Source: Gammaproteobacteria bacterium
GTDB lineage: Bacteria; Pseudomonadota; Gammaproteobacteria; SZUA-152
Direction of reading: 5' to 3'
DNA length: 44,428 bases
Assembly: GCA_021647705.1 (NCBI GenBank)
Contig: JAKIUF010000037.1
Coordinates: 1 to 44,428, forward strand
Below the pieces are notes generated by a model that saw only the letters and a program-made list of their open reading frames with translations, was not told where the DNA came from and searched no databases. Shown piece by piece: positions 8,474 to 43,774 of this stretch (position 1 is its first letter; every line of letters begins with the position of its first letter). Position numbers and translations under genes: made by a program.

Positions 8474-8493
8474 ATTCCCTGACTTTCCTTAAT

Positions 8494-8579: not shown

Positions 8580-8585
8580 GAGACC

Positions 8586-9077: not shown

Positions 9078-9083
9078 TGATTC

Positions 9084-9117: not shown

Positions 9118-9624
9118 ATAACTCCGCGCAAAAATCCCGCGATTTATTTGCCGATGATTCCTAGCTCCGCCAAATACTCCAACAAACCCACCAAATAATC
9201 AATGACTTATCACCGGAATCATTTTCACTGCGAATGCCCCATCGACCATAACCTGCTGGATATTGAGATGGGCAAATAAGACATTTTGGGGATATCACAC
9301 AGGATGTTTTTCCGTGTGAATTTGTTTATTTTTTGTACGTTTTATTTTTTGTGACTATTGGAAACCCATTGTATTCAACAGGATACATATGTTTTCCGAG
9401 ACATTTTACCCTGTGAAATATTGGAGTGTGGCCGGGATATTGAATGTGGAAACACCCAAAAATGGGAAAATATTCCATGTGTAATTACCAGTTTTAAGGA
9501 TGCTGTGCAAAATACCAGTTCAAATATTGAGCACATTTTATGTTCCCATGAAAAACCTGAAACTAATGGCGAGCATAAACAGTACCTTTTTTAGCCCTAA
9601 CGTCTAAGCATTTATTTTAACAAG
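9118..9624. other. Gap at the array edge with one doubtful reading frame
   Basis: No integrase gene is present where one would be expected upstream of the cassettes. A 78-codon plus-strand frame (9358-9594, METHCIQQDTYVFRDI...) is cysteine-rich and matches nothing I recognise. It lacks a clear ribosome site and is probably not a gene. The rest looks non-coding. Confidence 0.3.
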
Positions 9625-9843
9625 CTACTCAACGTCTTCGTATAACTCAGAAATCTCAACTTTTAATGCCTCAGCCATTAATGCAACTTCAGAATCTGTT
9701 ACACGTCTGACCTGAGACTCGATTTTTGCCAAAGTGCCGCGACTGATATTCCAACCAAAGAGATGACACCGAGCGGTCAACTCTTCCTGGGTCATATGGT
9801 TTTGTTCACGCAGCCGCCTGATTTGTGGGCCAATTACATTCAT
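9625..9843 (-). CDS. Small XRE-family transcriptional regulator
   Basis: The 72-residue protein is little more than a Cro/C1-type helix-turn-helix. RRLREQNHMTQEELTARC (about 9-26) supplies the first two helices, and SRGTLAKIESQVRRVTDSEV the recognition helix and the following one. The tail ALMAEALKVEISELYEDV is typical of single-domain XRE proteins. It probably acts as a dimeric repressor of its own promoter. Two similar palindromes lie directly upstream at 9854 and 9900. There is no partner gene downstream that would make it an antitoxin. Confidence 0.85.
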   Translation of the reverse strand: MNVIGPQIRRLREQNHMTQEELTARCHLFGWNISRGTLAKIESQVRRVTDSEVALMAEALKVEISELYEDVE

Positions 9844-9853
9844 AAGTCAAATT

Positions 9854-9869
9854 GCTCCGATATCGGAGC
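9854..9869. promoter_or_regulatory. Perfect 16-bp palindrome, proximal XRE operator
   Basis: GCTCCGATATCGGAGC is an exact palindrome 10 bases upstream of the XRE gene start. With the near-identical site at 9900 it forms a pair spaced 46 bases centre to centre, on the promoter side of a helix-turn-helix gene. Operator function is inferred from position and symmetry. Confidence 0.6.
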
Positions 9870-9899
9870 TTGATTCTGACAAAGAATACTGCCATTATT

Positions 9900-9915
9900 G
9901 CTCCGCTATCGGAGC
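9900..9915. promoter_or_regulatory. 16-bp inverted repeat, distal XRE operator
   Basis: GCTCCGCTATCGGAGC keeps the GCTCCG/CGGAGC arms of the proximal site and differs from it at a single central base. It sits between the XRE gene and the response-regulator gene, so it could also influence the latter's promoter. Confidence 0.55.
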
Positions 9916-10058
9916 AACCGTGTTATTTATTTATGCATAACCTGAAAATGGTAAACACACATCGATATATCGAATACCTCAAATCGCTGATAAACTCATA
10001 ATTGATGAGCATCAGGGAATTAAAGAGTATGTAAAGGACGACAATAGGAACAGAGAAA

Positions 10059-25485: not shown

Positions 25486-25794
25486 TTATAAACGCCCATT
25501 CTGTTCAACAGCGGTCACCCAGTAAATTCCATGCTCAGCCACACCCAGCCTTGCACTGCGTAACGTTTCGAGCAGCGAATCCACGTCACCGTCTTGCAAC
25601 AGGATTTCCACCCGGACTCGCGGTGTATAACCAACCACTTTGTCCCGTGCCGAAAGAAATGGATCATCTTCAACCTGTACACCATGCCCTTCCACGTGGC
25701 TAAAAGTAAACCCGGACACCACGTCCATGTTACGCAATTGATCGGCCAGTTCCTGTTGCACATTGGTGTGAATAATGAGCGTCAAAAGTTTCAT
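25486..25794 (-). CDS. DUF3240 family protein of the metal-efflux operon
   Basis: This 102-residue cytoplasmic protein belongs to DUF3240, a small PII-like ferredoxin-fold family found next to CusA/CzcA pumps. Typical parts are LIIHTNVQQELADQLR, GFTFSHVEGHG, and VRVEILLQDGDVDSLLETLR. The ending, GIYWVTAVEQNGRL, is also usual. It may sense or regulate the pump, but no activity is proven for the family. The start overlaps the stop of the pump gene by four bases (ATGA), so it is translationally coupled as the last gene of the efflux operon. Confidence 0.8.
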   Translation of the reverse strand: MKLLTLIIHTNVQQELADQLRNMDVVSGFTFSHVEGHGVQVEDDPFLSARDKVVGYTPRVRVEILLQDGDVDSLLETLRSARLGVAEHGIYWVTAVEQNGRL

Positions 25795-28700
25795 GTCCGT
25801 TTCTCCCGGGATTGATGTTCCGACCCGCCTTCCAGCCAGGCGTACAAGGTGGGTAATAAAATCAACGTCAATAACGTGGAGGTAAATAATCCACCAATCA
25901 CCACCACAGCCAAAGGCCGCTGCAATTCAGAACCCGGACCGCTGGCAAACAGCAGGGGCATGAGGCCCAGACTGGCAATCAGTGCGGTCATCAGCACCGG
26001 TCTCAATCGTCGTTCAGCACCTTCCTGCACGGCCTGCAATACATTGCGCCCAGCTTCCCGCAGCTGGTTAAAGTAGCTTACCATCACTACGCCGTTAAGT
26101 ACGGCTACACCGAACAGGGTGATAAACCCCACTGAGGCGGGCACCGACAGGTATAAGCCTGATAGATACAGGCTGACCACGCCACCAATCATGGCGAAGG
26201 GAATATTGAGAATGATCAGCCCGGCCTGCCGCAGAGAACGGAAGGTGGTAAACAGCATCACAAAAATCAGCGCGATGGAAATCGGTACCACCAGACCCAG
26301 ACGTGCAGCAGCACGCTGCTGGTTTTCAAATTGGCCGCCGTAAGTAATGTAATACGATGGTGGCAGTTGCAGCTCACGGCTAATCGTTGCTCGCACGTCA
26401 TCGACAAAACCCACCACGTCACGACCTTCAACATTCGCCTGAATAACAATCTGACGTTTGGCAGACTCACGGTCAATCGATACCGGGCCATCCACTTCAC
26501 GAATGTCAGCCAGACTGCTGAGCGGTATTTTTTCCCCGTCCGGGGTTTCCACCCACAGTGCGCCGATGGCCGCAGGCGAGCTGCGGGCCTGTTCTGGATA
26601 ACGCAGTTGCACACCAATGCGCTGATTGCCCTGAATCACTTCAGTGACCACGCGACCGCCAACAGCGACTTCCACCAGCCGGTTGATATCTTCGATATTG
26701 ATACCAAAACGTGCAATGGCCTGTGGCCGGATTTCTATTTGCAGATAGATCTGGCCGGACAGCTGGCCACGAAATACATCCACAGCACCGGGCACCTGGT
26801 TTACTAACGCTTCGATCTGTTTGGATTTTTCTTCCAGTACGTCAAGATCATCACCGTAAAGCTTAATCGCCATGGCTGCACGCACACCCGTGAGCATTTC
26901 TGACACACGCATGTCGATGGGCTGGGTAAAGGCGTAATCAATGCCGATAAATTCATCCAGTTTTGCGCGCAGGTTTTCCTGGAACTCTTCCAGGCTTACC
27001 GTCCATTGGTCCCGTGGTTTGGTAATAATAAAATTGTCCGTCTGATGCAGTCCCATAGGGTCAAGACGCAATTCATCAGCACCGGTACGTGACACCACAC
27101 CAATCACCTCGGGCAACTCCATCATTGCCTTTTGATAGGGCGCATCCAGTTCCAATGAACGTTCCAGTGAAATACTAGGCAGTTTTTCGATAATCACTAC
27201 GGTAGTGCCTTCATCCATCACCGGCATAAATTCTTTGCCAATCAGAGGAAACAATGCAATGGCTACCGCCAATGCAACCAGCGCACCGCCCACCGCTGTT
27301 TTGCGCCGGGCCAGCGCCCAATGCATGACCGGCAAATAAGCACGTTTTAGTGTAGCCAACACCCAGCCATCATCTTCATGACCGCCGCGCATCAGTAAAC
27401 TGGCCAGTACCGGAATCACCGTGAATGACAAAATCAATGAGCCGATAAGCGCAAACGAAATGGTCACCGCCAGCGGGGTAAACATTTTCCCTTCTAGCCC
27501 CGTGAGACTGAATAACGGCAGAAATACCACGATGATAATCAGCACACCGCTGATCACCGGTGTGGCAACTTCCAGTGCTGCCCGATAGACCAGATGCAGG
27601 CGATTAACACCTTTGGGCGCACGGTTTAGCTGGGTATGAATATTTTCCACCACCACCACTGCCGCATCCACCAAAATACCGATGGCGATCGCCAGTCCAC
27701 CCAGTGACATGAGGTTGGCACTGATGCCAAATATGCGCATCATGATGAAGGTAAACAACACCGACAGCGGTAAAATCAGCGCCACAGTCAATGCAGCGCG
27801 CAGATTGCCCAGCATGACTATCAATACCAGCAGCACCAGCAAAACAGCTTCGCCCAGTGCCTTTTCCACTGTCCATACAGCGGCCGATACCAATTCGGTA
27901 CGATCATAAAAAGGTACAGTGCGTACGCCTTCGGGCAGTGCCGATTTCAGCGCTTCCAGCTCTGCTTTAACACCTTCCACCGTACTGCGACTATTGGCCC
28001 CCAAGCGCAACAAAGCCAGACCGGTAACCACCTCGCCCTGTCCATCAGCCGTCACCGCGCCGTAACGAGTCAGTGAGTTAATACGCACTTCGGCGACATC
28101 ACTGATATGTATCGGTATGCCGTTGCGGCTGGCAACAGTAATACTGCGAATATCCGCCAGACCGTTTAGCTGCCCGGTGGTACGCACCAGCAACACTTCG
28201 TTGTTGCGGTTGATGCGGTCTCCCCCCGCATTGCGGTTGTTGTTTTTCAGCGCGGTTTCCAGGTCATTCAGATTCAGTCCGTGCGCCAACAGGGCTTCGG
28301 GATTGGCTACTACTTCAAAAACCTTGACCTCACCCCCCAGGGAGTTGACATCGGCCACTCCGTCTACGGTGCGCAAACGCGGACGAATCACCCAGTCCTG
28401 AATGCGACGCAATTCCTGATTGCTATATCCCTCGCCTTCGACGCGATACATGAAGCCTTCACCTAATGGTGTGGTGATGGGACCGAGTCCCCCTTCCACG
28501 CCGTCGGGTAACTCACTCCATACTTGGTTAAGACGTTCGTTCACCTGTTGGCGCGCCCAGTAAATATCGGTGCCATCTTCGAAGTCGATGATGATAATGC
28601 TGAGTGCGTATTTGGTGGTAGAGCGCAACACTGTTTGTCGCGGCAAGCCCTGCATTTCTATCTCAATAGGAAATGTAATACGGCTCTCCACCTCGGTGGG

Positions 28701-28871
28701 CGACAGCCCCGGGGCTTTGACAATAACCTGCACCTGCGGCGCAGCAATATCGGGAAACGCGTCGATGGGCAGGCTTTTGAAGGCCCACACACCGGCGGCG
28801 GTCAGTACCGTCGCCAGCAATAAAACCATCAATCGCTGGATCAGGGAAAAACGAATCAGGGAGGCAATCAT
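25791..28871 (-). CDS. Heavy-metal efflux RND pump (CusA/CzcA family)
   Basis: This is the inner-membrane proton-driven pump of a tripartite metal exporter. The 1026-residue protein is full length, with 12 predicted helices and two large periplasmic loops. The N-terminus has the family's FPDIAAPQVQV and GLSPTEVESRITFPIE. The fourth helix carries AIGILVDAAVVVVEN (near residue 400), with the proton-relay aspartate and glutamate. The DAA form resembles CusA-like (monovalent) more than the DGA of CzcA-type zinc/cobalt pumps, so the substrate is unsettled. Adaptor and outer-membrane genes precede it and DUF3240 follows. Confidence 0.92.
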   Translation of the reverse strand: MIASLIRFSLIQRLMVLLLATVLTAAGVWAFKSLPIDAFPDIAAPQVQVIVKAPGLSPTEVESRITFPIEIEMQGLPRQTVLRSTTKYALSIIIIDFEDGTDIYWARQQVNERLNQVWSELPDGVEGGLGPITTPLGEGFMYRVEGEGYSNQELRRIQDWVIRPRLRTVDGVADVNSLGGEVKVFEVVANPEALLAHGLNLNDLETALKNNNRNAGGDRINRNNEVLLVRTTGQLNGLADIRSITVASRNGIPIHISDVAEVRINSLTRYGAVTADGQGEVVTGLALLRLGANSRSTVEGVKAELEALKSALPEGVRTVPFYDRTELVSAAVWTVEKALGEAVLLVLLVLIVMLGNLRAALTVALILPLSVLFTFIMMRIFGISANLMSLGGLAIAIGILVDAAVVVVENIHTQLNRAPKGVNRLHLVYRAALEVATPVISGVLIIIVVFLPLFSLTGLEGKMFTPLAVTISFALIGSLILSFTVIPVLASLLMRGGHEDDGWVLATLKRAYLPVMHWALARRKTAVGGALVALAVAIALFPLIGKEFMPVMDEGTTVVIIEKLPSISLERSLELDAPYQKAMMELPEVIGVVSRTGADELRLDPMGLHQTDNFIITKPRDQWTVSLEEFQENLRAKLDEFIGIDYAFTQPIDMRVSEMLTGVRAAMAIKLYGDDLDVLEEKSKQIEALVNQVPGAVDVFRGQLSGQIYLQIEIRPQAIARFGINIEDINRLVEVAVGGRVVTEVIQGNQRIGVQLRYPEQARSSPAAIGALWVETPDGEKIPLSSLADIREVDGPVSIDRESAKRQIVIQANVEGRDVVGFVDDVRATISRELQLPPSYYITYGGQFENQQRAAARLGLVVPISIALIFVMLFTTFRSLRQAGLIILNIPFAMIGGVVSLYLSGLYLSVPASVGFITLFGVAVLNGVVMVSYFNQLREAGRNVLQAVQEGAERRLRPVLMTALIASLGLMPLLFASGPGSELQRPLAVVVIGGLFTSTLLTLILLPTLYAWLEGGSEHQSREKRT

Positions 28872-28874
28872 AGG

Positions 28875-29990
28875 TTATTCGCTCCCTGCGCCGTACTGCC
28901 AATGGGACTTGAGTTCAGCGACGCCACTACTGACAACATTTGTGTCAGCCGTGATACCACTGACAACCGGTACCCAGCCTACCGCTTCGGCACCGGTTTC
29001 AATCGCTATCGGCTCAAACCTGCCATTACCCAGCGCCTTGAAAACATAATTCTGGTCACCAAGCCGAAATACCGCTGAAGCTGGCACCATCAATCCCTGG
29101 CTGGCCATGCCACTGAGAGTGACTTCGGCATACATACCCGGCAGCAAGCGTCCGTCCGGGTTGGCCAGCACAATGCGACCACTCACGGTCTGACTCAAGG
29201 TCTTTACCGCACCTCCCAAAGATTCCAGTGTCCCACGATAGATTTGTCTCGGGCTGGCTTGCACACGAATTTGTGCTGCAACACCTGCGCTGACTTGCGA
29301 CAGACTGGCCACCGGAATTTGTACCATAGCCCACAGGGTACTGAGATCATCAACATGAAAAGCCACCTGCCCAACGCCGAGCAACTGGCCGGACTCAATC
29401 TCTACTCCCGTCACCAAACCATCAATGGGACTGATCAAATCAAACACCGCCAGTCGATCGGGCTGTTTGGCCAGTTGTCTGATTTGTCGATCCGAAAGCC
29501 CGGCCAAAGACAGCAGGCGGCGGCGCGCCTCCAGTGTGGCACGAGCACTTTTATATTCACTGTCTACTTTTAACCAACGACTTTCCGCTACCACCCCATC
29601 TTTCCACAAACCTTCGATGCGAGTGCGTTCGGCTTCGGCCAGTTCAAAACGTGCCAACGCCTCCAGATAACCCGCCTGTGCCTGACCCAGGCTATGACTG
29701 CGCAACTGCGCCAACACCTGCCCTTTGTGTACTTTTTCATTAGCAACAACCCGCAACGTTGTCACCAAACCATCCACGATGGGGGCAACACGGTGGGTTT
29801 TTCGCCGGTCAGCGGTAAGAACGCCGTTCAGTTTCAACTGTGTGAGACTTTCTCGACTACTCACAACGGTAGTCTCCAGATTGGCATTCGCCAATTGTGC
29901 TGGAGTGAGCTGTAACTCCACCGCAAAAACGGATACCGGAGTAACGAGAAAAAGTAATACAAAAGCCAAAATAATTATTGCTTTATTCAT
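28875..29990 (-). CDS. RND efflux periplasmic adaptor (CzcB/CusB family)
   Basis: This membrane-fusion protein links pump and outer-membrane channel. The start MNKAIIIL at 29990 gives a signal peptide (1-23) and 371 residues. Any longer frame would extend into the preceding gene. The adaptor body shows the barrel-sandwich halves HRVAPIVDGLVTTLRVVANE and DLISPIDGLVTGVEIESG around an alpha-hairpin (LEALARFELAEAERTR). It continues through a beta-barrel (GTLESLGGAVKTL...GRIVLANPDGRL) and the LLPGMYAEVTL motif. It overlaps the outer-membrane gene by eight bases and ends four bases before the pump gene. Confidence 0.88.
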   Translation of the reverse strand: MNKAIIILAFVLLFLVTPVSVFAVELQLTPAQLANANLETTVVSSRESLTQLKLNGVLTADRRKTHRVAPIVDGLVTTLRVVANEKVHKGQVLAQLRSHSLGQAQAGYLEALARFELAEAERTRIEGLWKDGVVAESRWLKVDSEYKSARATLEARRRLLSLAGLSDRQIRQLAKQPDRLAVFDLISPIDGLVTGVEIESGQLLGVGQVAFHVDDLSTLWAMVQIPVASLSQVSAGVAAQIRVQASPRQIYRGTLESLGGAVKTLSQTVSGRIVLANPDGRLLPGMYAEVTLSGMASQGLMVPASAVFRLGDQNYVFKALGNGRFEPIAIETGAEAVGWVPVVSGITADTNVVSSGVAELKSHWQYGAGSE

Positions 29991-31350
29991 GATGAGTATC
30001 CTGTACGGCAATCGTCTGTGCGTTAGTTTTTTCTTCTGTCCGTTCCCGGACCTGTTTGTCATCAACAAAACGATGACCAGCAGCCAAACGCAATTCTGCT
30101 GACTCCTGCCAAGCTTCCTGTAATAACTCCAGATAACGTTCACGGGCATCAAAATAAGTATTGTTGGCATCGATAAGAGAAAGAATTTCCACCTCGCCAT
30201 TGGCATAAGCCTTACGAGTCAAATCAAAAACCTGTTGCGCAGGCTCAAACACTCGGTTGCGATAATGTTTGCCTTGCTGCACCAAATGGCCAAGATGCAA
30301 ATAACTCTGTTGCAGGCGACTCCCCAGATCCCGCTCCAGAGCCTGAAGTTCTGACTGTATCTGAACCACTTGCGCACGGGCTGCACTGATACGTCCATTG
30401 CTGCGATTCCAGAGCGGAAGTGTGAAACCAATGCCAATACCATTCACGTCCTGACGGCGTCCGTTAAGCGAGTCCCGTTCACGAAACAGACTCAGTGTCG
30501 GATCCGGCATCCGCTCCGCGCGTACCAGCTTGACCTCTGCCTGTGCCGCCGCAAGACGCTGTTTTACCGCCAGCATGGCTGGATGTTGTGACAACCTTTC
30601 CTGTAACTGCACCAGCGTGGGAATGGCATCAAAAGGCTTCAGTGGCGTCAATTGCAACCTTGCCTCTGCCATCCCGGGGCTAAAACCCAGATAGGCACGG
30701 AACCGGCTGAGTGCTTCGTTGGCTTTACCTTCGGATTTATCAAGAATTTGTTGTGCCGACTCACGGATAAGATCAAGGCGCAAACGCTCCAGCCGGGAAA
30801 GCTCTCCGGCCTGCTCCCGCTGGTGCCCGGCAGCCTGCAATGCATTCGCCAACTGTAAACGTAACTCCGCCAGACGCAAACGCTCCGCCGCTAACTGCAA
30901 ATTGTGATAACGTTGTGCCACCTGCGCTTCCAGGCGTACCTGCTGATATTGACGCTGACTGCGGGCTGCCTCCAGCTGCGCTTCGGCAACGTTACGTTGA
31001 TGCCCAAGACGACCGCCAATGGGCAACGGCTGGCTAAATGCAAACTGGGTAAAATCAGTACCACTGCCCCCCTCATCCTTGCTCATTGAATCGTCAGCAC
31101 GCAACTCAATCTCCGGGTTCGGCCATGCGCCTGCTTGTTTCAGCGCGCCCTCACGAGCACGAATCAGCGCCTCCGCACCGCGAGTTTCCGGTGCAATTTC
31201 CACCGCACGTTGAATACTGTCTTCCAGCGTCCACAGCGTCTGTGCTAGAACCGGCATCGGTGTCACAGAAAACAACACAAGCACAAACATCATGACTTGG
31301 TTATTTTTTCGACAGCCTTTTTGACCCAACCAATAAAAACCATTCAACAT
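29983..31350 (-). CDS. Outer-membrane channel of metal efflux (CzcC/TolC family)
   Basis: This is the outer-membrane channel of the tripartite exporter. The ATG at 31350 has a GGAGT ribosome site and gives about 455 residues with an N-terminal signal sequence ending near VLA-QT. Two outer-membrane-efflux repeats follow. They include GAWPNPEIELRADD and PLPIGGRLGHQRN, then long coiled helices (LEAARSQRQYQQVRLEAQVAQ split at 165-185) and GFTLPLWNRSNGRIS. KAYANGEVEILSLIDA closes the second repeat. It is the first intact gene of the operon. A decayed gene precedes it. Confidence 0.88.
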   Translation of the reverse strand: MLNGFYWLGQKGCRKNNQVMMFVLVLFSVTPMPVLAQTLWTLEDSIQRAVEIAPETRGAEALIRAREGALKQAGAWPNPEIELRADDSMSKDEGGSGTDFTQFAFSQPLPIGGRLGHQRNVAEAQLEAARSQRQYQQVRLEAQVAQRYHNLQLAAERLRLAELRLQLANALQAAGHQREQAGELSRLERLRLDLIRESAQQILDKSEGKANEALSRFRAYLGFSPGMAEARLQLTPLKPFDAIPTLVQLQERLSQHPAMLAVKQRLAAAQAEVKLVRAERMPDPTLSLFRERDSLNGRRQDVNGIGIGFTLPLWNRSNGRISAARAQVVQIQSELQALERDLGSRLQQSYLHLGHLVQQGKHYRNRVFEPAQQVFDLTRKAYANGEVEILSLIDANNTYFDARERYLELLQEAWQESAELRLAAGHRFVDDKQVRERTEEKTNAQTIAVQDTHHE

Positions 31351-31483
31351 GAGTAACTCCTGGCGTAATACTCCGTTCACGACAACACAATACGAGAAAT
31401 GTTCAGCAACAAAACATGTAGCAGTGCGTCGCACAGACCCAAGCCCGCGCACGAGACAGTACCTGCGGATAATTAAACAAAAC

Positions 31484-34274: not shown

Positions 34275-35561
34275 ATGAACATTCTGGTAACCGGGGCAAG
34301 TGGTTTTATCGGTAGCCACATTGTGCAAGCATTGAATAATGCAGGTCACATTGTGACGGTATGTTTACGTGATACCCAAACAGCACAACAACGCTGGCCT
34401 GGACTGAACATTGTGCAGGCGGATTTCAGCAAAGATCACACTGAGTCTGATTGGCTCCCGCACCTCGCTGACATTGATATTGTCATCAATGCCGTTGGTA
34501 TTATCAGCGAAAGCGGTCAACAAACTTTCGATGCTTTGCATACGCAAGCACCCTGCGCCCTCTTCCGTGCCTGTAAAAAAGCGGGTGTGAAACGTGTGAT
34601 TCAAATATCCGCGCTGGGGGCAGACAAAACGGCATTTAGCCAATACCACTTGAGCAAACGGGCTGCTGATGAATATTTAGCTTCGTTAAACCTGGAATGG
34701 GCTATCGTAATGCCGTCAATCGTTTATGGACCCGGAGCCAAAAGCATGGCCCTGTTTAAAGCAATTGCCGCTTTACCGGTTATCCCACTCATTGATTCAG
34801 GTAACCAAGCGATTCAGCCTATTCACATAGATGACTTAAGCAAGGCCATTTTACAACTCAGTGAAGCAGAGATATGCCACAAACTGCGTATTGAGGCGGT
34901 GGGACCACAGTCAATAACCATGAAAGAACTCTATAGCCAGCTCAGAACCTGGCTTGGAATGGGCAAACCCAGATTTATATCCATCCCTTATTCGATGGCA
35001 TTACTGGGGGGTCGTCTCGGTGATTTTCTGGGAAACACACCAATGACCCGAGAAGCCATTCAAATGTTACGCAAAGGAAATACAGGAGATGTCACGCCTT
35101 TTGTCAATCAATTTGGTTTTAGACCAAAGCACTTTTCAGAGAGTTTAAAACAGGCCCCGGCACAACAAGCTGATTATTGGCACGGAGGTTTGCTCTTCCT
35201 GAAACCATTATTGAGATTTTCAATCGCCTTTTTATGGATCTTCACAGGAATCATTTCTGCTTTTGTTTTTCCCATCACACAAAGCTACGCCATGTTAGCC
35301 GAGGCGGGAATATCAGGGATATGGGCTCCCATTATGCTCTATGGTGCAGCAACTATAAATATTGCTCTGGGCATCGCCACTCTGTTCGCCTATCGAATAT
35401 CTTTAACGGGATTTATTCAGGTTTCGGTAATAATTATTTATACGATTATTATTACATTTTCGCAACTCGAGCAATGGATTCATCCTTTCGGTCCAGTGAG
35501 TAAAAATATCCCCTTGATAATAGCTACCATGATAATGATTGTTTTGGAAAAGAAACATTGA
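34275..35561 (+). CDS. NAD(P)-dependent SDR/epimerase fused to DoxX-like membrane domain
   Basis: Residues 1-300 form an extended or atypical short-chain dehydrogenase: the nucleotide-binding GASGFIGSHIVQAL (7-20), an NAVGIISE strand, and the RVIQISALGAD and YHLSKRAADEYL active-site region, with Tyr and Lys in YxxxK spacing. Residues about 300-425 add four membrane helices of a DoxX-like domain (RFSIAFLWIFTGIISAF...). The fusion tethers the enzyme to the membrane. It heads a coupled operon with DUF2269 and DUF4166 genes under the palindrome at 34219. The substrate is unknown. This gene set recurs in bacteria as I recall it, but without a known pathway. Confidence 0.85.
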   Translation: MNILVTGASGFIGSHIVQALNNAGHIVTVCLRDTQTAQQRWPGLNIVQADFSKDHTESDWLPHLADIDIVINAVGIISESGQQTFDALHTQAPCALFRACKKAGVKRVIQISALGADKTAFSQYHLSKRAADEYLASLNLEWAIVMPSIVYGPGAKSMALFKAIAALPVIPLIDSGNQAIQPIHIDDLSKAILQLSEAEICHKLRIEAVGPQSITMKELYSQLRTWLGMGKPRFISIPYSMALLGGRLGDFLGNTPMTREAIQMLRKGNTGDVTPFVNQFGFRPKHFSESLKQAPAQQADYWHGGLLFLKPLLRFSIAFLWIFTGIISAFVFPITQSYAMLAEAGISGIWAPIMLYGAATINIALGIATLFAYRISLTGFIQVSVIIIYTIIITFSQLEQWIHPFGPVSKNIPLIIATMIMIVLEKKH

Positions 35562-36034
35562 TGGAATACGAATTACTCAAATGGGCCCACTTGTTAAGCG
35601 CCACAATTTTATTTGGCACAGGTTTGGGCAGTGCATTTTATAAATGGTGCGCTGACCGAAGTGGAAATCTGCAAACTATTGCCCACACCAATAAAACTGT
35701 CGTCATTGCAGACTGGGTATTCACCACACCTGCAATAATCATTCAACCCATTACCGGTATTTGGCTTGCCCATGTATTGGGAGTTTCATTATATGAATTT
35801 TGGATCATCGCAGCATTTGGTTTGTATTTTATTGCAGGTGCCTGCTGGCTACCGGTGGTCTGGTTACAAATACAAATGCGTAATATATCCAGACAGGCTG
35901 TTAGAGAAAAAACCTGTTTGAATACAACTTATCATCGCTATGCAAAAATCTGGTTCTGGCTGGGTATTCCCGCATTTTTATCAATGATTACGGTATATTT
36001 TTTAATGGTCTTTAAACCTGTTATTACCTTGTAG
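35561..36034 (+). CDS. DUF2269 family membrane protein
   Basis: The 157-residue protein has four membrane helices and the DUF2269 start YELLKWAHLLSATILFGTGLGSA, here split over residues 3-25, with its conserved histidine. A second conserved patch is TPAIIIQPITGIWLA. Histidines and aromatic residues in the membrane suggest a cofactor or ion site, but no role is known. The ATG at 35561 shares a base with the SDR-DoxX stop (TGATG). It probably works with the DoxX-like domain encoded just upstream. Confidence 0.82.
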   Translation: MEYELLKWAHLLSATILFGTGLGSAFYKWCADRSGNLQTIAHTNKTVVIADWVFTTPAIIIQPITGIWLAHVLGVSLYEFWIIAAFGLYFIAGACWLPVVWLQIQMRNISRQAVREKTCLNTTYHRYAKIWFWLGIPAFLSMITVYFLMVFKPVITL

Positions 36035-36045
36035 AGGAACTCAAT

Positions 36046-36660
36046 ATGTTAGAAGAAAAACAACAACCTGTAATCAAAAAAGCCCTAGGTGAAAACTGGG
36101 AAAAACTCGCAGATATCATTAAACAGCACTACGATATAACGCCAGGAAAACCATCAAACATGCTCATAAAAGGTGTTATGGATGAAGTTTATCATTCAGC
36201 GATAGCCAAACTCTTTATATTGCCGGGAAGAATATTTGGCGCTCTAGTGCCGTATAAAGGAAAAAATATACCCACCGAAGTGCGTAACTGGACGACAAGC
36301 GACAATCGTAAGGCCATGTTTTGGCATCGAACTCTGGCATTTCCGGGAAAACCACCAGTAATCTTTGAATCACGCATGGAGCATATAAAAGATGATGAAA
36401 TCATTGAGTATGTACGTTACGGAATGGGTATTCGCATGAGAATATCGGTGAAAGACAGCGCCTTAATATTCAACAGTATTGGCTATGTATGGCAACTCGG
36501 TAAAATCAAAATACCAATTCCGACCTGGGCTATTCTGGGCAATGCTGAAATTATAGAAAAAGCTATTTCTGATGATCAGTTTTTTATTGACTTTCAGATA
36601 ACTCACCCTTTATTCGGGAGAACTTTTGCATACTCAGGGGTGTATAGCTGTAGTGATTGA
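36046..36660 (+). CDS. DUF4166 domain protein
   Basis: The 204-residue soluble protein matches DUF4166. Supporting parts are LGENWEKLADIIKQHYD at the N-terminus, GVMDEVYHS, and a beta-rich centre with WHRTLAFPGKPPVIFES. The C-terminal half has MGIRMRISVKDSALIFNS and the ending THPLFGRTFAYSG. The fold may be a lipid- or ligand-binding barrel, but function is not established. GAGG lies a few bases before the ATG, 12 bases after the DUF2269 stop. It is the last gene of the operon, and an inverted-repeat element follows. Confidence 0.8.
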   Translation: MLEEKQQPVIKKALGENWEKLADIIKQHYDITPGKPSNMLIKGVMDEVYHSAIAKLFILPGRIFGALVPYKGKNIPTEVRNWTTSDNRKAMFWHRTLAFPGKPPVIFESRMEHIKDDEIIEYVRYGMGIRMRISVKDSALIFNSIGYVWQLGKIKIPIPTWAILGNAEIIEKAISDDQFFIDFQITHPLFGRTFAYSGVYSCSD

Positions 36661-36963: not shown

Positions 36964-38499
36964 TTAAAGCAATGGCTTAATCGGCATAAACTGCCAAAAG
37001 AAAACCCGCCATTGCTTCCATGTCGAGGCAAATGAATCCGGCTCGTCATACAAGGCGTTCCAACTGTTAGTTGGCCCCATATCAGTTTGGATAAGTTGTT
37101 CTACTTTTTTTGCAATTTGTTTATTGTGAACAATAACACCCACTTCTGTATTAAGGTTTTCAGAACGCGGGTCCAAATTATAAGTGCCGATATAAACAGT
37201 TTCTGAATCAATCACCATCGTTTTGGCATGCAGGGCAAAAATGGGGCGTGACTTTTTTATATCATCGTAACGATGTAAGAGTTGCTCCTGAGTCACGGGA
37301 TTTGGTTTATATTCGAATATCTGCAAACCCATATTCAATAACTTTTTACGCTGATTCTTATAACCACTGAAGGCTTGTATATTATCGGTTGAAGCAAGAG
37401 AATTGGTGCTGATTTGTATGGAGACGCCTCTCTTTCGTGTTCGCCGAAATAATGATTCCGCTTTTTTACTTAAAACCAGATAAGGCGACTGTATTACAAT
37501 TTTATGCTTTGACTTTTCAACCAGTGCTGCCAATTCTACCGTTGTAATACCGCCTCCGCCCAATGAAAATCGTCGGTTGTTTTTCCCAGGCGTATCACTG
37601 ATAAATCTGGCATCAGTCCATATCACTTCCTTTGTCAGCACCTGAAAGGCGGCAGGCACATTCTCAATAGCTTTTCGTACTTCAAGTTCAAAATTATCCG
37701 GCGATTGTGCGTATTCATGTAACTCTTGATAAATTTTCTGCACTTCTGCATCATTAATTGATACATTTTTTTGTAAAATTCCCAGGCCATCAAATAAATC
37801 ATTTACTTCAACGCTTAATTCACTTCGCCAGAATTGGTCAAAACTCCATACCATTTTTTCAGCGACATTACCCAGCACCAATATATCCCGATCACGAAAA
37901 TTATATTCATTGTTATAGTCAAAATATTCATCAGCCATGTTGCGACCACCTGTGATGGCAACTTTTCCGTCAACAATAAATGTTTTGTCATGCATGCGCT
38001 GATTAACACCCCGAAAATCAGTCACCACATTCAAAATACGTTTACGAACCGGTGTCCCTACAGAATGTTGAGGATTATAAATTCTAATGGATACATTTGG
38101 ATGCAAAGCAAGGGCGAGTAATGTCTTATCAGGTGCATCAATCAATAGATCATCAACAATAACCCGTACTTTTACTCCACGCTTTGCAGCACGCAACAGC
38201 GCTTCTGTCGCTAAAATACCAATATTATCGGTACTCCAGATAAAATATTGGACTTCAATACTTTGCTGAGCATGATCTGCCAACCATGCCCGCGCCAAAA
38301 GAGCTTCTTCGCCTTTATCCAGAATAAGTACACCTGTCAAACCATCATGAATCTTGATCTGCTCATCAATATAAGAAAAATTCAATGGCTCAGCTTGTAC
38401 ATATTTTTGAGTGAACATAAGAAATAATAGCAGGATTGCTAAATTCAGTAGAATGAAAATACGGTTTTTTGAAGCATTAAAATCAGAAAAATAATACAT
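36964..38499 (-). CDS. Phospholipase D-family protein (cardiolipin synthase-like)
   Basis: This enzyme cleaves or transfers phosphatidyl groups. The 511-residue protein has both HKD motifs. The first is HDKTFIVDGKVAITGG (His170, Lys172, Asp177) and the second HAKTMVIDSETVYIG (His424, Lys426, Asp431). An N-terminal hydrophobic segment (14-36, ending YVQA-EP) looks like a signal peptide or anchor, placing it in the periplasm. Length and the QYFIWSTDN and RSENLNTE motifs fit the ClsC/YmdC-type branch. It starts one base after the ceramidase stop and is the last gene of the lipid operon. Confidence 0.88.
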   Translation of the reverse strand: MYYFSDFNASKNRIFILLNLAILLLFLMFTQKYVQAEPLNFSYIDEQIKIHDGLTGVLILDKGEEALLARAWLADHAQQSIEVQYFIWSTDNIGILATEALLRAAKRGVKVRVIVDDLLIDAPDKTLLALALHPNVSIRIYNPQHSVGTPVRKRILNVVTDFRGVNQRMHDKTFIVDGKVAITGGRNMADEYFDYNNEYNFRDRDILVLGNVAEKMVWSFDQFWRSELSVEVNDLFDGLGILQKNVSINDAEVQKIYQELHEYAQSPDNFELEVRKAIENVPAAFQVLTKEVIWTDARFISDTPGKNNRRFSLGGGGITTVELAALVEKSKHKIVIQSPYLVLSKKAESLFRRTRKRGVSIQISTNSLASTDNIQAFSGYKNQRKKLLNMGLQIFEYKPNPVTQEQLLHRYDDIKKSRPIFALHAKTMVIDSETVYIGTYNLDPRSENLNTEVGVIVHNKQIAKKVEQLIQTDMGPTNSWNALYDEPDSFASTWKQWRVFFWQFMPIKPLL

Positions 38500-38500
38500 A

Positions 38501-39286
38501 TTATTTTATGCCATGGTTTATCGTACCGTCATCATAGCGGCTAATACTCCAGACCGCCAACAGGAAAAAAACCCCGGAAAAAGCCGCGACAATATGTTTT
38601 ATTGTATGGCCACTGATATTCAAAATATGATAAATATCAGCATCAAAATTTTCCATCAGTTTAGCGGCAAGATATAGGCCCAGGATCAACCAGACATATT
38701 TCTGCTGATAGTTCGACACCGGAAATAACAACAATATGAGGGGTATCAATATTATGGGTAAAAATTGCACAATTGCATAAAAACGAAGATCTCCAAACCC
38801 CATGGCTTCTGTATATGACCAATAAAATACCGATAACGCCCCAATGAATACAAGCGGCCACAACGCGGCTCTCCCCAACCTTTGATTAAGATGAAACGAT
38901 AGAATAAATGAAAAAAAGGCCATAAATGATACTGTCATTGGCAGCCGGTCCCACAATAATGTTTCGTTAGTGGGTAAAAAGTGGTAATAAGCGGAGCCAA
39001 AGCCGGTTAATATCAAGCCAATAAAAAATATCATAATCGGCATTTTATGAACTGCAAGCGATTTTTCTGACAGATACTTTCTGGCAATAACGAAACCCAA
39101 AATGCCGATGATGATAAAAGGGATATTTGATAAAACATTCCAAGCATTGGGAATGCCCATTTTTGTATATCCATCAGCGAACTGATGATAACCAGCATCC
39201 TGAGGAATTGGTTCAACAAAAAAAACAGTGACCAGTATTACTATCGTTAGCACTTGCAATATTATTAATCTTGTATTAAAAACCAT
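38501..39286 (-). CDS. Ceramidase-family (CREST) membrane hydrolase
   Basis: This 261-residue protein has seven membrane helices and all three CREST superfamily motifs: S98-x3-H102 (GSAYYH), D113 (LLWDRLP), and H227-x3-H231 (GHTIKH), which bind the catalytic zinc. The N-terminal YHQFADGYTKMGIPNAWNVL is typical of the ceramidase family. Eukaryotic members cleave the amide bond of ceramides. The substrate in a gammaproteobacterium is unknown, and sphingolipids are not usual there. It lies between a lipase-like and a phospholipase D gene, which supports a lipid amide or ester substrate. Confidence 0.85.
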   Translation of the reverse strand: MVFNTRLIILQVLTIVILVTVFFVEPIPQDAGYHQFADGYTKMGIPNAWNVLSNIPFIIIGILGFVIARKYLSEKSLAVHKMPIMIFFIGLILTGFGSAYYHFLPTNETLLWDRLPMTVSFMAFFSFILSFHLNQRLGRAALWPLVFIGALSVFYWSYTEAMGFGDLRFYAIVQFLPIILIPLILLLFPVSNYQQKYVWLILGLYLAAKLMENFDADIYHILNISGHTIKHIVAAFSGVFFLLAVWSISRYDDGTINHGIK

Positions 39287-39298
39287 GACCTATACTCT

Positions 39299-40138
39299 TT
39301 ATTGAATAGCATTTTTTCGATAAAACTTTCCATTCTGTAAATACCCTATCGTCTGGCGTATAACCTCTTTACTCGACATAATCATCGGGTGCGTATGCGG
39401 CACAACCAAATAATCTGACATACCCTCTACTTTAGCCCGTTCAATCGATACCTTGCCATCATCGTCTCCGGGAATGATGGTAGATAAGATAAGATTAATG
39501 CTTTTATTACCCGTTATCACACCAACAGAATAATCAACGGGCCCCAGTGTGTTTGGCAGGCTTTTTTCCAATGTTCCCAATTGTTGCCCTGCGGGTCCAT
39601 TAAGTGCGTAAAAACCTGGGAAATCACCCAATTTATCAACAACCTCACTACCTTGATTCGGCGGGCTCAACATCACGACATGCCCTAAATTATCCAACGA
39701 ATGATTCGCCAGATAATAACGAACCAGAATTCCTCCCATGGAATGAGTAACAAAATGTATTTTTTCTGCCTGTACAGATCGACATTCTGCTATTGCTTTT
39801 GTCACATAATCTTCTGCCAAAACTTCGATAACATGTTTTCTTGAGGGGTAATCAATATTAATGACATGATACCCTGCTTCACTCAATGCATTTTTCATCG
39901 CCGAGAATGAGCGGCTACTCCTGGCCAGCCCATGAAGCAATACAACACATTCGTTTCTTTTTTTACTCATTTCTGTCTCAGTATAGTTCGTCATCGAAAA
40001 AGTGTAATTTGTTATTCCTGACGTGATAAAACACACCAAAATAATGAATATTATCCTTCCCAAAAAGAACAGGTCAGAACTTTCATTCTGACCTGCATTT
40101 CCGGTTATTTCTCCCATTGTGCCAGTTTTGTTTTCCAC
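39299..40138 (-). CDS. Alpha/beta hydrolase (lipase/PGAP1-like), start uncertain
   Basis: This is an esterase or lipase of the alpha/beta fold. VVLLHGLARSS forms the oxyanion region, THSMGGI the nucleophile elbow (Ser133 of the longest form), GDDDGKVS a likely acid, and HTHPMIM the catalytic histidine. A hydrophobic stretch (26-45) could anchor it to the inner membrane. The longest form starts at a GTG at 40138, inside the preceding gene. A terminator-like hairpin lies within its first codons, so translation may begin later (for example the ATG encoding MTNYTETEM). The ceramidase gene follows 12 bases after its stop. Confidence 0.75.
   Translation of the reverse strand: MENKTGTMGEITGNAGQNESSDLFFLGRIIFIILVCFITSGITNYTFSMTNYTETEMSKKRNECVVLLHGLARSSRSFSAMKNALSEAGYHVINIDYPSRKHVIEVLAEDYVTKAIAECRSVQAEKIHFVTHSMGGILVRYYLANHSLDNLGHVVMLSPPNQGSEVVDKLGDFPGFYALNGPAGQQLGTLEKSLPNTLGPVDYSVGVITGNKSINLILSTIIPGDDDGKVSIERAKVEGMSDYLVVPHTHPMIMSSKEVIRQTIGYLQNGKFYRKNAIQ
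40060..40095 (-). terminator. Intrinsic-terminator-like hairpin inside the lipid operon
   Basis: On the minus strand CAGGTCAGAA and TTCTGACCTG (40095-40086 and 40079-40070) form a 10-bp stem with a 6-base loop, followed at once by TTCTTTTT. It lies 10 bases after the stop of the many-pass membrane protein gene. It should end many transcripts there or act as an attenuator for the three enzymes downstream. Confidence 0.65.
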
Positions 40139-41451
40139 GCTACAAAACGTAGTTTTATATTTCCGCCCTGTGATTCCATCATTGAAGCAATGACAATGGA
40201 AACAACACCTAAAACAGCTAGGCCCGCCCAGTTTCCAAGATCAAAATGCCATACTAGTTCATAAAGCTGTTGTGCAATGCCCAGTAACATCAAAATAATA
40301 CCACCGGAAAACAGATTTTTCTGTTGCATTTTATAGCCTGTCAAACTCGCCCCCATGCCAATAATCACCGTCATCAGTGAGATAGTAAAACTGGCATGAC
40401 TCAACAAATTAACAGCGATACCAATAACCAGCCCCGCCACGGCAATACGCCTGTACAGGCCTGCTCTGTAATGATCACAATGACGGCGAAATGAAATTTC
40501 ATAAACCATTGCCATTGATGCCACCACACCAAATGGAAACAATATTCCATAGGCAAAACTGGTCACTGCCTGCAAAACATCGATCAGTAAAAGGCCAAAT
40601 AATATCGCCGATAAAACGGAGAATCCCCCCAGAACATCTTTCACTCTGGATTTTCCTCCCAGGTAAAAAGAAACCTGGCGCAGAATAAAAAATACGGAGA
40701 AGGATAGCACTGCTAACAGAAACAAGTCCGCCGAATAAAGCCACAAACTACGCCCCATAAGTACCGCCAAAGGCAAAAGCTGTAACCCAAGAGCAATAAT
40801 GCCTTCGCTCGTTTTAGCCGCGGCATTATGATTCGAGGTTTTCCGGCTTAAGGCAATAACAACAAACGCAAGTACCAAAACCATAATACCCACCAACTGT
40901 GGATCACGTAACGGCAATAAAAGTGCAGCATTACTCAATAAAAACAATATTGATAATTTTTTCGACATGCTTCTTGCCAGCACGGTAAACCCGAGAAATG
41001 TCACAGGAATCAGCACTAATAAGGCAATACCGTTACTTAACACTGCTGAGTTCAGGCTGTCCACAGACCAGGCAACATAGTGCGGATAAGTGCTGACATC
41101 TATCGCTGCGGTTTGAGAAAAAATGAATGCTCCCAGAATGGCAAAGTTTGCGGGCACGGAAATCAGTGACAAGGTCAATAACAAGCGTGCGCCTTTGCTT
41201 TCTTTCAGCCAATAACCACTGGCAATACCGATGGCCGCCAATGCTCCGGTATGGCCCAGCATTAAAAAATACCGAAACATGTCATCACTACTGTCCCAGC
41301 CTCGAATCAGAAAACTGTACATGGCAATCAGTACTGCACCTGCGCCCAGAATGCGCAAAATTGCAGGCAGGTTTTTCATCAAATCAAAATCCGGTTTTTG
41401 TGGGCTCGGAGGAATTCTCTCTTCAGTCCATGAGTCTTTTTGAGTATTCAT
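40105..41451 (-). CDS. Polytopic membrane protein of the lipid operon
   Basis: I do not recognise this 448-residue protein by name. It has a soluble N-terminal 30 residues rich in proline and charge, then about 12 hydrophobic segments separated by short loops, and a basic C-terminal tail (KLRFVAWKTKLAQWEK). No transporter signature is visible. Its ATG overlaps the stop of the PspA-like gene by four bases (ATGA), so it is coupled to it and a physical partnership is likely. A terminator-like hairpin follows. Confidence 0.75.
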   Translation of the reverse strand: MNTQKDSWTEERIPPSPQKPDFDLMKNLPAILRILGAGAVLIAMYSFLIRGWDSSDDMFRYFLMLGHTGALAAIGIASGYWLKESKGARLLLTLSLISVPANFAILGAFIFSQTAAIDVSTYPHYVAWSVDSLNSAVLSNGIALLVLIPVTFLGFTVLARSMSKKLSILFLLSNAALLLPLRDPQLVGIMVLVLAFVVIALSRKTSNHNAAAKTSEGIIALGLQLLPLAVLMGRSLWLYSADLFLLAVLSFSVFFILRQVSFYLGGKSRVKDVLGGFSVLSAILFGLLLIDVLQAVTSFAYGILFPFGVVASMAMVYEISFRRHCDHYRAGLYRRIAVAGLVIGIAVNLLSHASFTISLMTVIIGMGASLTGYKMQQKNLFSGGIILMLLGIAQQLYELVWHFDLGNWAGLAVLGVVSIVIASMMESQGGNIKLRFVAWKTKLAQWEK

Positions 41452-42107
41452 TTTTGTTCCTTTTTGGCAAGCAATTGAGTCAGTTCCTTGCGTAAATCCC
41501 CTTTCTTTTCTTTGGCGAGGAAATCACGCTCCAATACATCTGTTGGCTCAAGTGGATCAACAAGCATTTCAGTCTGGCTGATATTTATTTCCCAACGCCC
41601 AAACGTTTCATCCAGTTGATTTTCTACATTATTATTCATTTCACTGGTGGCGCTAATGGCTGAAGTTGTAGATTGCCTCGCTCTCATAAGGGTCAGTTTT
41701 TGCTTCATTTCACCCAGATGTTGTTCGCTGGATTCAATGTCCTGCCCAAGCTTGTCAGCCGTCTGCGCATATTCATTAATCGCTTGTCGCAATCTGGCAT
41801 TTTTTTGTTCACAAAAACGACTGCGGCTCACACATTCCAGTGCTTTCTCTTCATCAGCATCAGCATCAGCACAGTCAACCGCACGCTGCTGCCAACGCCG
41901 GGCATTTTTCTGCATTTCCTGACTTTGCTGTTCTAACTGTTCTTTTTCACGATGCACCTGGCCCAGGCGAACCTTTGCCTCGGCAACTTTTTTTCGCATG
42001 TCATTCAGACTTGCTTGAATAACCGCATCGTGATTTTCGATTTCACCCACAACCTGGTCTATGCGTGAAAACAACGTCGTGAAAAGCCGTTTGAATAAGG
42101 ACATCAT
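41448..42107 (-). CDS. PspA/IM30-like coiled-coil membrane-protection protein
   Basis: PspA/IM30 proteins bind and stabilise stressed membranes. The 219-residue protein begins MMSLFKRLFTTLFSRIDQVV, an amphipathic helix followed by a long coiled coil (about 20-155: NDMRKKVAEAKVRLGQV, EKEQLEQQSQEMQKNARRW). This matches PspA in its first two-thirds. The C-terminal part is non-standard and acidic (EMLVDPLEPTDVLERDF). GGAGG lies just before two adjacent ATGs (42107, 42104). It leads the lipid operon, and the ATG of the next gene overlaps its stop. A divergent XRE-type gene lies 143 bases away. Confidence 0.8.
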   Translation of the reverse strand: MMSLFKRLFTTLFSRIDQVVGEIENHDAVIQASLNDMRKKVAEAKVRLGQVHREKEQLEQQSQEMQKNARRWQQRAVDCADADADEEKALECVSRSRFCEQKNARLRQAINEYAQTADKLGQDIESSEQHLGEMKQKLTLMRARQSTTSAISATSEMNNNVENQLDETFGRWEINISQTEMLVDPLEPTDVLERDFLAKEKKGDLRKELTQLLAKKEQK

Positions 42108-42249
42108 AAATACCTCCGTTTTGTCATTAGTGAGGTAATTGTTATCCCTGGAAGCCAATAAATAAACCACTTCAATATTTGTAGTTAAAAATGCTCTTTT
42201 GGTCTATTATTGATATACTTTAAAGCAGATTAACACTGAGGGAAAAGGC

Positions 42250-42990
42250 ATGGCACAAACCGCAGCATTGATAGACACACTGAAACAGGCGCTGAAAAGT
42301 CACCGCCTGACCTACGCTCACGTCGCGCAAAAGCTGGAGATGAGCGAGGCCAATATCAAACGCATGTTTGCATCAAAACGTTTTACGCTGGAACGATTGG
42401 AGGATATCTGCCAATTAATGCAAATGGAATTAAGTGATCTTTTTCAACTCTATGACGAATCACGCCAACACATTACCCAGCTCACCCTGGAACAGGAAAA
42501 AGGTCTGGTAAACGATGCCAAGCTTTTATTGGTGGCGGTAAGCGTACGCAACCGGCTCAGCTTTGCTGACATTATTAACAATTATCAGATTTCCAAGACA
42601 GAGTGTATTCGTTGTCTTGCGATGCTGGACAAACTCAAAATCATCGACCTGTTGCCCAATAACCGAATCAAGCTGCGAATAGATGACGATTTTCGCTGGC
42701 TGCCGAATGGCCCTATTGACCGTTTTTTTGAGCAACAGATTAAAAACCAGTTTTTAAAATCACGATTCAAGGGTGAACAGGAGGAGCGTCTCTTCCTGTT
42801 CGGCCTGCTGAGTGAATCCTCTACCCAAGTGATGATGAACAAGATGCAGTCTTTGGCCAAGGAATTTACTGACCTGCATCGCCAGGATGCCAAATTACCG
42901 CTTGATAAGCGTCACAATATCGGTGTCATGCTTGCCATCAGACCGTGGGATCTGGCGTTTTTCCAGCCATTGCAAAACACTAACACTTGA
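42250..42990 (+). CDS. XRE-type transcriptional regulator divergent from the lipid operon
   Basis: The 246-residue protein has an N-terminal Cro/C1 helix-turn-helix (LTYAHVAQKLEMSEANIKRM, about 19-38) followed by FTLERLEDICQLMQMELSDLF. The remaining 170 residues include a second winged-helix-like segment (FADIINNYQISKTECIRCLAML) and a helical region, but match no sensor domain I know. GAGGG lies before the ATG. Its divergence from the PspA-like gene, with only 143 bases between them, suggests it controls that operon, its own gene, or both. Confidence 0.8.
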   Translation: MAQTAALIDTLKQALKSHRLTYAHVAQKLEMSEANIKRMFASKRFTLERLEDICQLMQMELSDLFQLYDESRQHITQLTLEQEKGLVNDAKLLLVAVSVRNRLSFADIINNYQISKTECIRCLAMLDKLKIIDLLPNNRIKLRIDDDFRWLPNGPIDRFFEQQIKNQFLKSRFKGEQEERLFLFGLLSESSTQVMMNKMQSLAKEFTDLHRQDAKLPLDKRHNIGVMLAIRPWDLAFFQPLQNTNT

Positions 42991-43165: not shown

Positions 43166-43774
43166 TCAAAACCTGAACTTGATACTGGCACTCATTGAGT
43201 CTGCTTCTTGCAGGGCGACACCACTAAAATTGTAGCGCTCCCACTCAATTAACAATGTACGTTCGTCACTGCCATAGAGGTCGATATTCATTCCCACGCC
43301 ATAGGTCAATCCCTGGCCGGACTCAATTTCATTATCGTCATTATCCATGAGTGACCAAAAAGACATGCCGAACTTGGCCTGTAGATCAATATTTTTCAGC
43401 ACCGGCTGAGTGATAACCGCATTGAGGTATAGCGCATTTGCTGTAAACACATTGCGCTGACTTAAATCAGTATCCATTACAATTTCACCAAAGCTGGTTA
43501 CACCCAGCTCTATGCCCAAAAGCGGATCAAATTGATACCCGGCAAATAACTTAAATGTATCTCCGCCTTGCCGAAATGATGCATCTGAACCATCTGAATA
43601 CATAGCAGATAAATTGGCTTCATTGAATGTCAGGTCAGATGCACTCACACCAACACCCGCGTACCAGCGTTTTTCATCTCCAAAACTGGGGGCCGCAAAC
43701 ACTGGTGAAACATATCCACCAACCAAAAACACCATGGCCACCAACAGCGACCTTTTTGAATAACAACGTTTCAT
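43166..43774 (-). CDS. Outer-membrane beta-barrel protein
   Basis: The 202-residue protein has a signal peptide (about 1-27, cleaved near VFA-AP). It then has alternating polar and hydrophobic strands typical of a small barrel of OmpA/OmpW size: RWYAGVGVSASDLTF, GDTFKLFAGYQFDPLLGIEL and LTYGVGMNIDLYG. It ends SIKFRF with the terminal phenylalanine needed for barrel assembly. No functional motif points to a substrate. GGAG lies before the ATG. It is not linked to the lipid operon, from which it is separated by the regulator and a repeat. Confidence 0.85.
   Translation of the reverse strand: MKRCYSKRSLLVAMVFLVGGYVSPVFAAPSFGDEKRWYAGVGVSASDLTFNEANLSAMYSDGSDASFRQGGDTFKLFAGYQFDPLLGIELGVTSFGEIVMDTDLSQRNVFTANALYLNAVITQPVLKNIDLQAKFGMSFWSLMDNDDNEIESGQGLTYGVGMNIDLYGSDERTLLIEWERYNFSGVALQEADSMSASIKFRF

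Follow-up and report, generated by a model that had tools for sequence, protein, structure and literature searches.

Does the row of five minus-strand genes at positions 36964 to 42107 of contig JAKIUF010000037.1 (assembly GCA_021647705.1, a Gammaproteobacteria bacterium) form one membrane-lipid operon, as an earlier note on this DNA had proposed, or are its parts tied to each other in some other way? The contig, here called C51, was analysed over its whole length of 44,428 nucleotides, referred to as the window; its host genome comprises 4.4 Mb in 82 contigs and is 96% complete. The conserved units proved to be the gene pair A-B, often accompanied by the regulator gene R, and R together with aas/lplT-type genes, not the five genes as a set. 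The locus is best regarded, with reasonable though limited confidence, as an envelope phospholipid-damage response that would be governed by R and into which lipid hydrolases were recruited. The features concerned are listed below, with Pfam scores given against the family cut-offs.

42250..42990, plus strand: R, HTH_26 (Cro/C1-type) regulator, divergent from A; HTH_26 at 36.0 bits against 22
41448..42107, minus strand: A, an outlying member of the PspA/IM30 family; PF04012 (PspA_IM30) at 55.2 bits against 33.9
40105..41451, minus strand: B, polytopic membrane protein, the usual partner of A, with weak similarity to DUF2157
40069..40096, minus strand: terminator-like hairpin of 12 pairs with a T-run, after B
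39299..40066, minus strand: C, alpha/beta serine hydrolase (called open reading frame 39299-40138, GTG start at 40138); Abhydrolase_1 at 43.0 against 25.8
38501..39286, minus strand: D, CREST hydrolase of the alkaline-ceramidase type; PF05875 (Ceramidase) at 39.4 against 32.5
36964..38499, minus strand: E, two-HKD phospholipase-D (PLD) family protein; PLDc_2 at 136 against 27, in two stretches
43166..43774, minus strand: OMP, gene for an OmpA-like outer-membrane beta-barrel protein beyond R; in the relative G016 it is followed by aas-lplT
42201..42219: candidate operator of R in the R-A intergenic region, 8/10 bases of AGTAT-N9-ATACT (shuffle p 0.10 for the single site)
42150..42168, minus strand: promoter-region motif near A, 17/19 bases in common with the DNA upstream of aas in this genome
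43892..43910: exact palindrome match (AGTATCGCATATCAATACT) upstream of the OmpA-like gene, 10/10; 10/10 also at the corresponding place in G016

All five minus-strand reading frames and the divergent regulator were present as the earlier note had described them, and its family calls were borne out, since PspA_IM30 (A), Ceramidase (D), Abhydrolase_1 (C), PLDc_2 with two HKD motifs (E) and HTH_26 (R) all exceeded the Pfam cut-offs. The spacings were confirmed for the 4-base overlap of A and B, the 12-base gap between C and D and the 1-base gap between D and E; the 34-base overlap of B and C was not, the hairpin lying inside the called start of C.

Homologues were searched in 24 genomes of the order and, at the level of the class, in 369 Gammaproteobacteria genomes. 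Within the order, D was found in six genomes, B in six (two of them remnants) and A in three, with an additional 23-residue A tail at a contig end in G021; close orthologues of C occurred in seven genomes and those of E in four, with E pieces in one more. The relatives found to carry D are six metagenome-assembled genome records labelled Gammaproteobacteria or Chromatiales, whose isolate names suggest deep-sea vents or sediments. The complete row A-B-C-D-E was seen in the window only. G019 (R-A-B-C) and G021 (A tail-B-C-D-E) agree with this row up to their contig ends, G017 retains D and E intact next to fragments of B and a broken C, and G020 retains C and D next to fragments of B and E. In G016, R-C-D-E lies on one contig, whereas A-B lies on a second one together with a 5' piece of R. 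G008, which belongs to another genus, carries C-D only, at 88-89% identity. The simplest history would be an ancestral R-A-B-C-D-E row in the genus that is now breaking up.

Across the class, D was detected in 42 of the 369 genomes. Neighbourhoods of up to 8 kb per side were taken for 39 of the 40 distant ceramidase genes (the weak match in G026 was left out; several were cut by contig ends), and in the stretches fetched none of the 39 had A, B, C or E beside D, while two had R. The co-occurrence check that the earlier note had suggested was thus run on the five families, and the set was found to be confined to one genus; the proposal of one conserved five-gene operon was dropped on these counts. 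C-D-E is a lineage add-on behind A-B and was seen together with A-B in this genus only.

The pair A-B showed a different pattern. B occurred in 19 of the 369 genomes, with A directly upstream at 16 of the 19 loci; the exceptions were G235, G330 (where B is a remnant) and G259 (where the frame is doubtful). R was divergent from A-B at 10 of the 19, one of these R genes being a piece. A-B is therefore a conserved pair across Gammaproteobacteria, often with R. The A protein matched Vipp1/PspA structures of the PDB at 1e-5 and scored under the equivalog cut-offs of PspA (TIGR02977, 34.9 against 242.95 bits) and LiaH (26.7 against 380). For the window's B, no Pfam family passed its cut-off, the best being DUF2157 (15.8 against 32.4); weak DUF2157 similarity was seen in five of 16 B homologues (best E 2e-4), and Pfam gave no PspB or PspC match in B. 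An identity of B as a short Arc3A/DUF2339 protein was considered and not established (no DUF2339 match in the 16 homologues; hhalign probability 16%, E 0.0016), and the similarity of B to an R-adjacent protein in L212, which is DUF2157-like by eye and has no Pfam match, was not significant. As a separate observation, the gene after A-B in L250 (9242-10192) and L202 (4693-5673) is lipoprotein-like by eye, with a glycine-rich and then hydrophobic C-terminus and no Pfam match.

Homologues of R were found in 56 of the 369 genomes, some of them fragments or weak matches. Of the distant R loci, which come from 54 genomes, 51 were mapped, the weak matches in G273, G279 and G381 being left out. Within two genes of R at these 51 loci, an Aas/LplT/PlsC-family gene was present at 17, A at eight, a ceramidase-like D at two and a C homologue at one; at least one of these was present at 22. 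As a control, an Aas/LplT/PlsC-like gene stood within two genes at 0/37 ceramidase neighbourhoods lacking R (hand count; Fisher p 4e-5), a p value that holds for 0/37, as such a gene is the third gene in L138 and L145 and L145 would count (1/37) if a reading frame overlapping D is spurious.

The arrangements at these loci were specific. At seven R loci a large LplT-Aas type protein is encoded divergently from R; the three scanned with Pfam are fusions of MFS, acyltransferase and AMP-binding domains, and the one scanned with NCBIfam narrowly passed the acyl-[ACP]-phospholipid O-acyltransferase cut-off (1223.8 against 1221). In L201-L204 and L206, R is immediately followed by aas, after which an lplT-like gene begins; in L201, L202 and L204 the opposite flank of R carries A-B. 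A ceramidase-like gene and then an LplT-PlsC fusion are divergent from R in L151 and L240 (D is truncated in L240); L150 has a ceramidase-like gene without the C-terminal motif, somewhat farther from R. In L219, R is accompanied by an LplT-Aas fusion and by a homologue of C (9e-74). Elsewhere, R loci hold a different PspA protein in L230, a Toastrack DUF4097 protein in L238, a protein in L222 whose DUF2157 similarity stays under the cut-off and, in L237, a CdsA-type cytidylyltransferase with an acyltransferase-like gene.

Two further gene types were seen beside R. DUF2145 genes are divergent from R in L212, L213, L217 and L233 (two assigned by Pfam and two with phmmer); in three of these loci the first gene encodes a small protein that looks secreted. 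VIT/vWA proteins are divergent from R in L206 (9396-11438), L207 (9223-11292) and L209 (2076-4151); two of the three were scanned with Pfam, and by eye these translations end in a glycine-rich and then hydrophobic, sorting-signal-like stretch.

In the window's own genome, aas and lplT open contig C63, beginning at base 387. Its LplT passed the NCBIfam cut-off (383 against 297), its Aas scored just under (822 against 886), and the Aas is 96% identical to that of G016, where R, OMP, aas and lplT are contiguous in that order. Beyond the OMP gene, 654 bases remain to the end of the window. Adjacency of aas-lplT to the window in this genome is probable, not proven.

A palindrome, AGTAT-N9-ATACT, was found upstream of R. 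At least 9 of its 10 bases were matched at 25 of 48 R loci against 0.59 expected from shuffles, and at least 8 of 10 at 36 of the 48 against 7.0 expected; this count excludes two loci where the upstream DNA was too short, as well as four R fragments of less than 180 amino acids. The pattern was written after 22 of the 48 loci had been read, and ten of the 26 loci not read at that time reach at least 9/10 (hand count). The aas site of G016 matched at 9/10; the six aas upstream regions tested besides that of the window's genome matched at 9/10 in three cases, 8/10 in two and 7/10 in one. For the exact site upstream of the OMP gene, 0.07 exact matches were expected in the window by base composition. 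With up to two mismatches the palindrome was not enriched window-wide (15 against 15.3 expected); the argument rests on its positions beside R, OMP and aas. The upstream regions of A and aas in the window's genome also have 17 of the 19 bases of GGTTTATTTATTNGCYTCC in common, a motif that was written from these same two sites, so that the exact match cannot serve as independent evidence. At both A and aas this motif is preceded on its upstream side by the palindrome, a placement that would suit an activator site.

The junction of B and C was analysed separately. The hairpin at 40096-40069 begins 8 bases past the stop codon of B and lies within the called start of C. Terminator-like sites in the region were little enriched (9 against 5.9 +/- 2.3 in shuffles), and the hairpin after B was the longest of them. 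A hairpin occupies the corresponding position in G019, G021, G017 and G016 and, in imperfect form, in G020; the window, G019 and G021 have a good T-run, the other three a weaker one. In G021, G017 and G016 the arms diverge strongly from those of the window and yet pair, with a mismatch or G-U pair in G017 and G016. Among six distant B loci, a hairpin with T after B was present in L210, L242 and L235, and none with a T-run in L204, L201 and L202. Because the hairpin falls inside the called start of C, the true start most likely lies after it, and the 34-base overlap would be a start miscall; in G021, C opens with ATG just past the hairpin.

Several observations count against a lipid-damage response under R. 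The window's R/A site reaches only 8/10, and so does the aas site on C63 (p 0.11). No exact overlap of at least 15 bases joins the ends of C51 and C63, short repeats are common to both contigs, and the last ~510 bases of the window are unlike the short R-OMP-aas spacer of G016. At 29 of the 51 distant R loci, none of A, C, D or Aas/LplT/PlsC lies within two genes, although four of the 29 (L218, L227, L239 and L247) have no upstream gene, the contig ending there. The R family is broader than lipid repair, since several R loci flank unrelated genes such as those for RuvB, RtcB, sulfate assimilation or VIT/vWA proteins. No convincing recurrent partner of D-like genes was found outside R loci. The hairpin behind B speaks against a simple common transcript of A-B and C-D-E; C-D-E may be expressed by read-through or from a promoter of its own.

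The hairpin bears on the alternative that the neighbours share no function, R-A-B being a PspA-type stress module and C-D-E an independent, perhaps laterally acquired cassette with its own promoter. The hairpin kept despite its changed arms fits such a cassette, as do the lower GC content of C-D-E (~0.39 against ~0.44), the occurrence of C-D without A, B and E in another genus (G008) and the distant D neighbourhoods devoid of A, B, C and E. However, C (L219) and D (L151, L240) separately adjoin R and LplT/Aas-type genes in distant genomes, and in G016, where A-B is missing beside R, C-D-E lies directly under an A-like promoter region. We consider the independent cassette rather unlikely.

In D, residues S98, H102, D113, H227 and H231 (SxxxH, D and HxxxH motifs) are invariant in 28 aligned family members, and D keeps the five residues mutated in human ACER3 as given in passages of PMC9436119, with identical spacing within the motifs. 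ACER3 was matched by a D profile at E 0.22 with six close sequences and at E 0.0088 with 28. An AlphaFold2 model of D from six close sequences had a mean pLDDT (predicted confidence) of 48 and was not used. D is predicted to be integral to the membrane. In E, two HxKxxxxD motifs are readable, and its score lies under the cardiolipin synthase equivalog cut-off (TIGR04265, 105.2 against 290). C and E each have an N-terminal hydrophobic segment by simple hydropathy, which suggests that they act at the periplasmic side. An SDR-DoxX_3/DUF2269/DUF4166 cassette at 34275-36660 (plus strand) is convergent with E; it adjoins E in G017 too, with the SDR gene cut by the contig end, and G020 and G021 have DUF4166 fragments only.

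The organism had not been expected to make sphingolipids, and the result is in keeping with this: no serine palmitoyltransferase (SPT) candidate was found in the 96% complete genome, a search with the BioF family returning only BioF, over its cut-off, and a GlyA-type enzyme. Ceramide is therefore unlikely to be the native substrate of D. Five relatives searched with the BioF family each have an unassigned BioF/SPT-like protein of ~450-530 amino acids under the BioF cut-off. Three of the five were scanned, L278 (1246-2601, G020), L279 (1471-3060, G008) and L280 (1237-2601, G016), and were under every NCBIfam cut-off shown; these three come from D-carrying relatives, and no counterpart was found in the window's genome.

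Comparison with known systems places the locus close to the phage shock protein (PSP) response. Here too a PspA/IM30 protein, A, has a membrane partner encoded beside it and a dedicated divergent regulator, and B is weakly DUF2157-like, as LiaF carries DUF2157 helices according to passages of PMC11237479, which recalls LiaH/LiaF. In contrast to PSP systems, the regulator here is the HTH_26 protein R rather than the sigma-54 activator PspF or LiaRS, A lies far under the PspA equivalog cut-off, and R is linked to aas-lplT. The main text of that PSP survey contains none of the words XRE, acyltransferase and ceramidase. Judged by its gene content, the locus resembles a PSP system joined to LplT/Aas, with the PspA domain present, a regulator other than the classical one and a score short of the equivalog; A may, by analogy with PSP proteins, oligomerise on and seal damaged membranes.

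LplT and Aas re-acylate lysophospholipid and protect against phospholipase attack, as described in parts of PMC11416262 and PMC8926400. Both genes are present in the window's genome, beside the same regulator in G016 and as fused forms flanking R elsewhere; the known system consists of LplT and Aas alone in those parts of PMC11416262, whereas here a PspA-like pair, a ceramidase-like gene and R are added. Arc3 of Pseudomonas aeruginosa, in the sections of PMC8926400 concerned with it, likewise involves a polytopic membrane protein; in many bacteria its genes lie next to aas, and it prevents lysophospholipid build-up. Arc3A, however, is a DUF2339 protein, which B is not detectably, and Arc3 is controlled by Gac/Rsm. 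D resembles ACER3 and other CREST proteins in its Ser-His-Asp and His-His catalytic set, in the ACER3 spacing within each motif and in passing PF05875, and differs in that no sphingolipid synthesis was found in its genome. In portions of Pei et al. 2011 (PMC3146951) no substantial gene association is given for bacterial CREST groups, whereas here D is linked to R and LplT/PlsC in a few genomes. A full-text literature search, in which few subscription papers were covered, gave no published account of R, of A-B with aas-lplT or of the gene set.

Another alternative is an anti-membrane-attack island, directed at the phospholipase effectors of rivals or at phage. Aas and Arc3 shield P. aeruginosa from such effectors, as passages of PMC8926400 and PMC12663445 report, and the patchy, decaying distribution of C-D-E fits conflict genes; PADLOC nevertheless gave no specific match (A, E and R met generic coiled-coil, PLD-family and HTH models only, and B, C and D none), B is not evidently Arc3A-like, and A-B is a stable pair across families rather than island-like, which leaves a defence function quite improbable. 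That the lipase, ceramidase and PLD degrade environmental lipids as food, PspA only countering self-damage, is hardly credible: the N-terminal segments of C and E and the lack of sphingolipid synthesis, by which a ceramide substrate would have to come from outside, agree with it, but D is a predicted integral membrane protein, neither uptake nor beta-oxidation genes were recognised next to the locus, and the link of R is to repair genes.

For the phospholipid-damage response, the following sequence of events is proposed. Membrane or phospholipid damage would alter R, which may bind the 19-bp palindrome next to its own start and control the divergent A-B transcript, the OmpA-like gene and aas-lplT. 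Where the inner membrane is damaged, the PspA-like A would assemble on it together with its integral partner B, so that A-B shields the membrane, while LplT would flip lysophospholipids inward and Aas re-acylate them, restoring diacyl phospholipid. In this genus, the three-hydrolase cassette, comprising the lipase C, the PLD-family protein E and the putative acyl/amide hydrolase D, an integral CREST protein, appears to have been attached downstream of B. At the membrane surface, C, D and E may cleave lipids that are damaged or foreign, or acyl groups linked to lipids, thereby feeding LplT/Aas. The membrane-lipid stress function suggested earlier is thus supported: the link of the R family to LplT/Aas genes, also within the window's genus, and the operator-like palindrome speak for it, and the architecture of five genes as one conserved system is not supported.

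Elsewhere in the window, an RND efflux operon with an AcrB-type pump, an HlyD-type adaptor and an OEP outer-membrane factor lies at 25791-31452 (minus strand). The region 2000-10000 is low in GC (~0.37-0.39 against ~0.5 in mid-window), and two reading frames scanned there had no Pfam match at 1e-5.

In a wider form, R may define an undescribed regulon for lipid damage in Gammaproteobacteria, with a single lipid-sensing switch that would couple PspA/ESCRT-III-like sealing by A with B to Aas/LplT re-acylation, and the CREST-type bacterial 'ceramidases' would be its acyl hydrolases on phospholipids or acyl-amide lipids, not ceramide. This extension is tentative, and we regard it as somewhat doubtful. 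PMC13170283 records a recent proposal that lysophospholipids act as signals in Escherichia coli, and a candidate lipid-responsive regulator is of interest for this reason. If the regulon exists, PspA-type sealing and LplT/Aas re-acylation, which are known separately, would be joined under one regulator, and bacterial ceramidase-like CREST proteins would gain a genomic context that suggests their function. The palindrome would make the regulon predictable, and so open to testing, in Gammaproteobacteria carrying R-A-B-aas.

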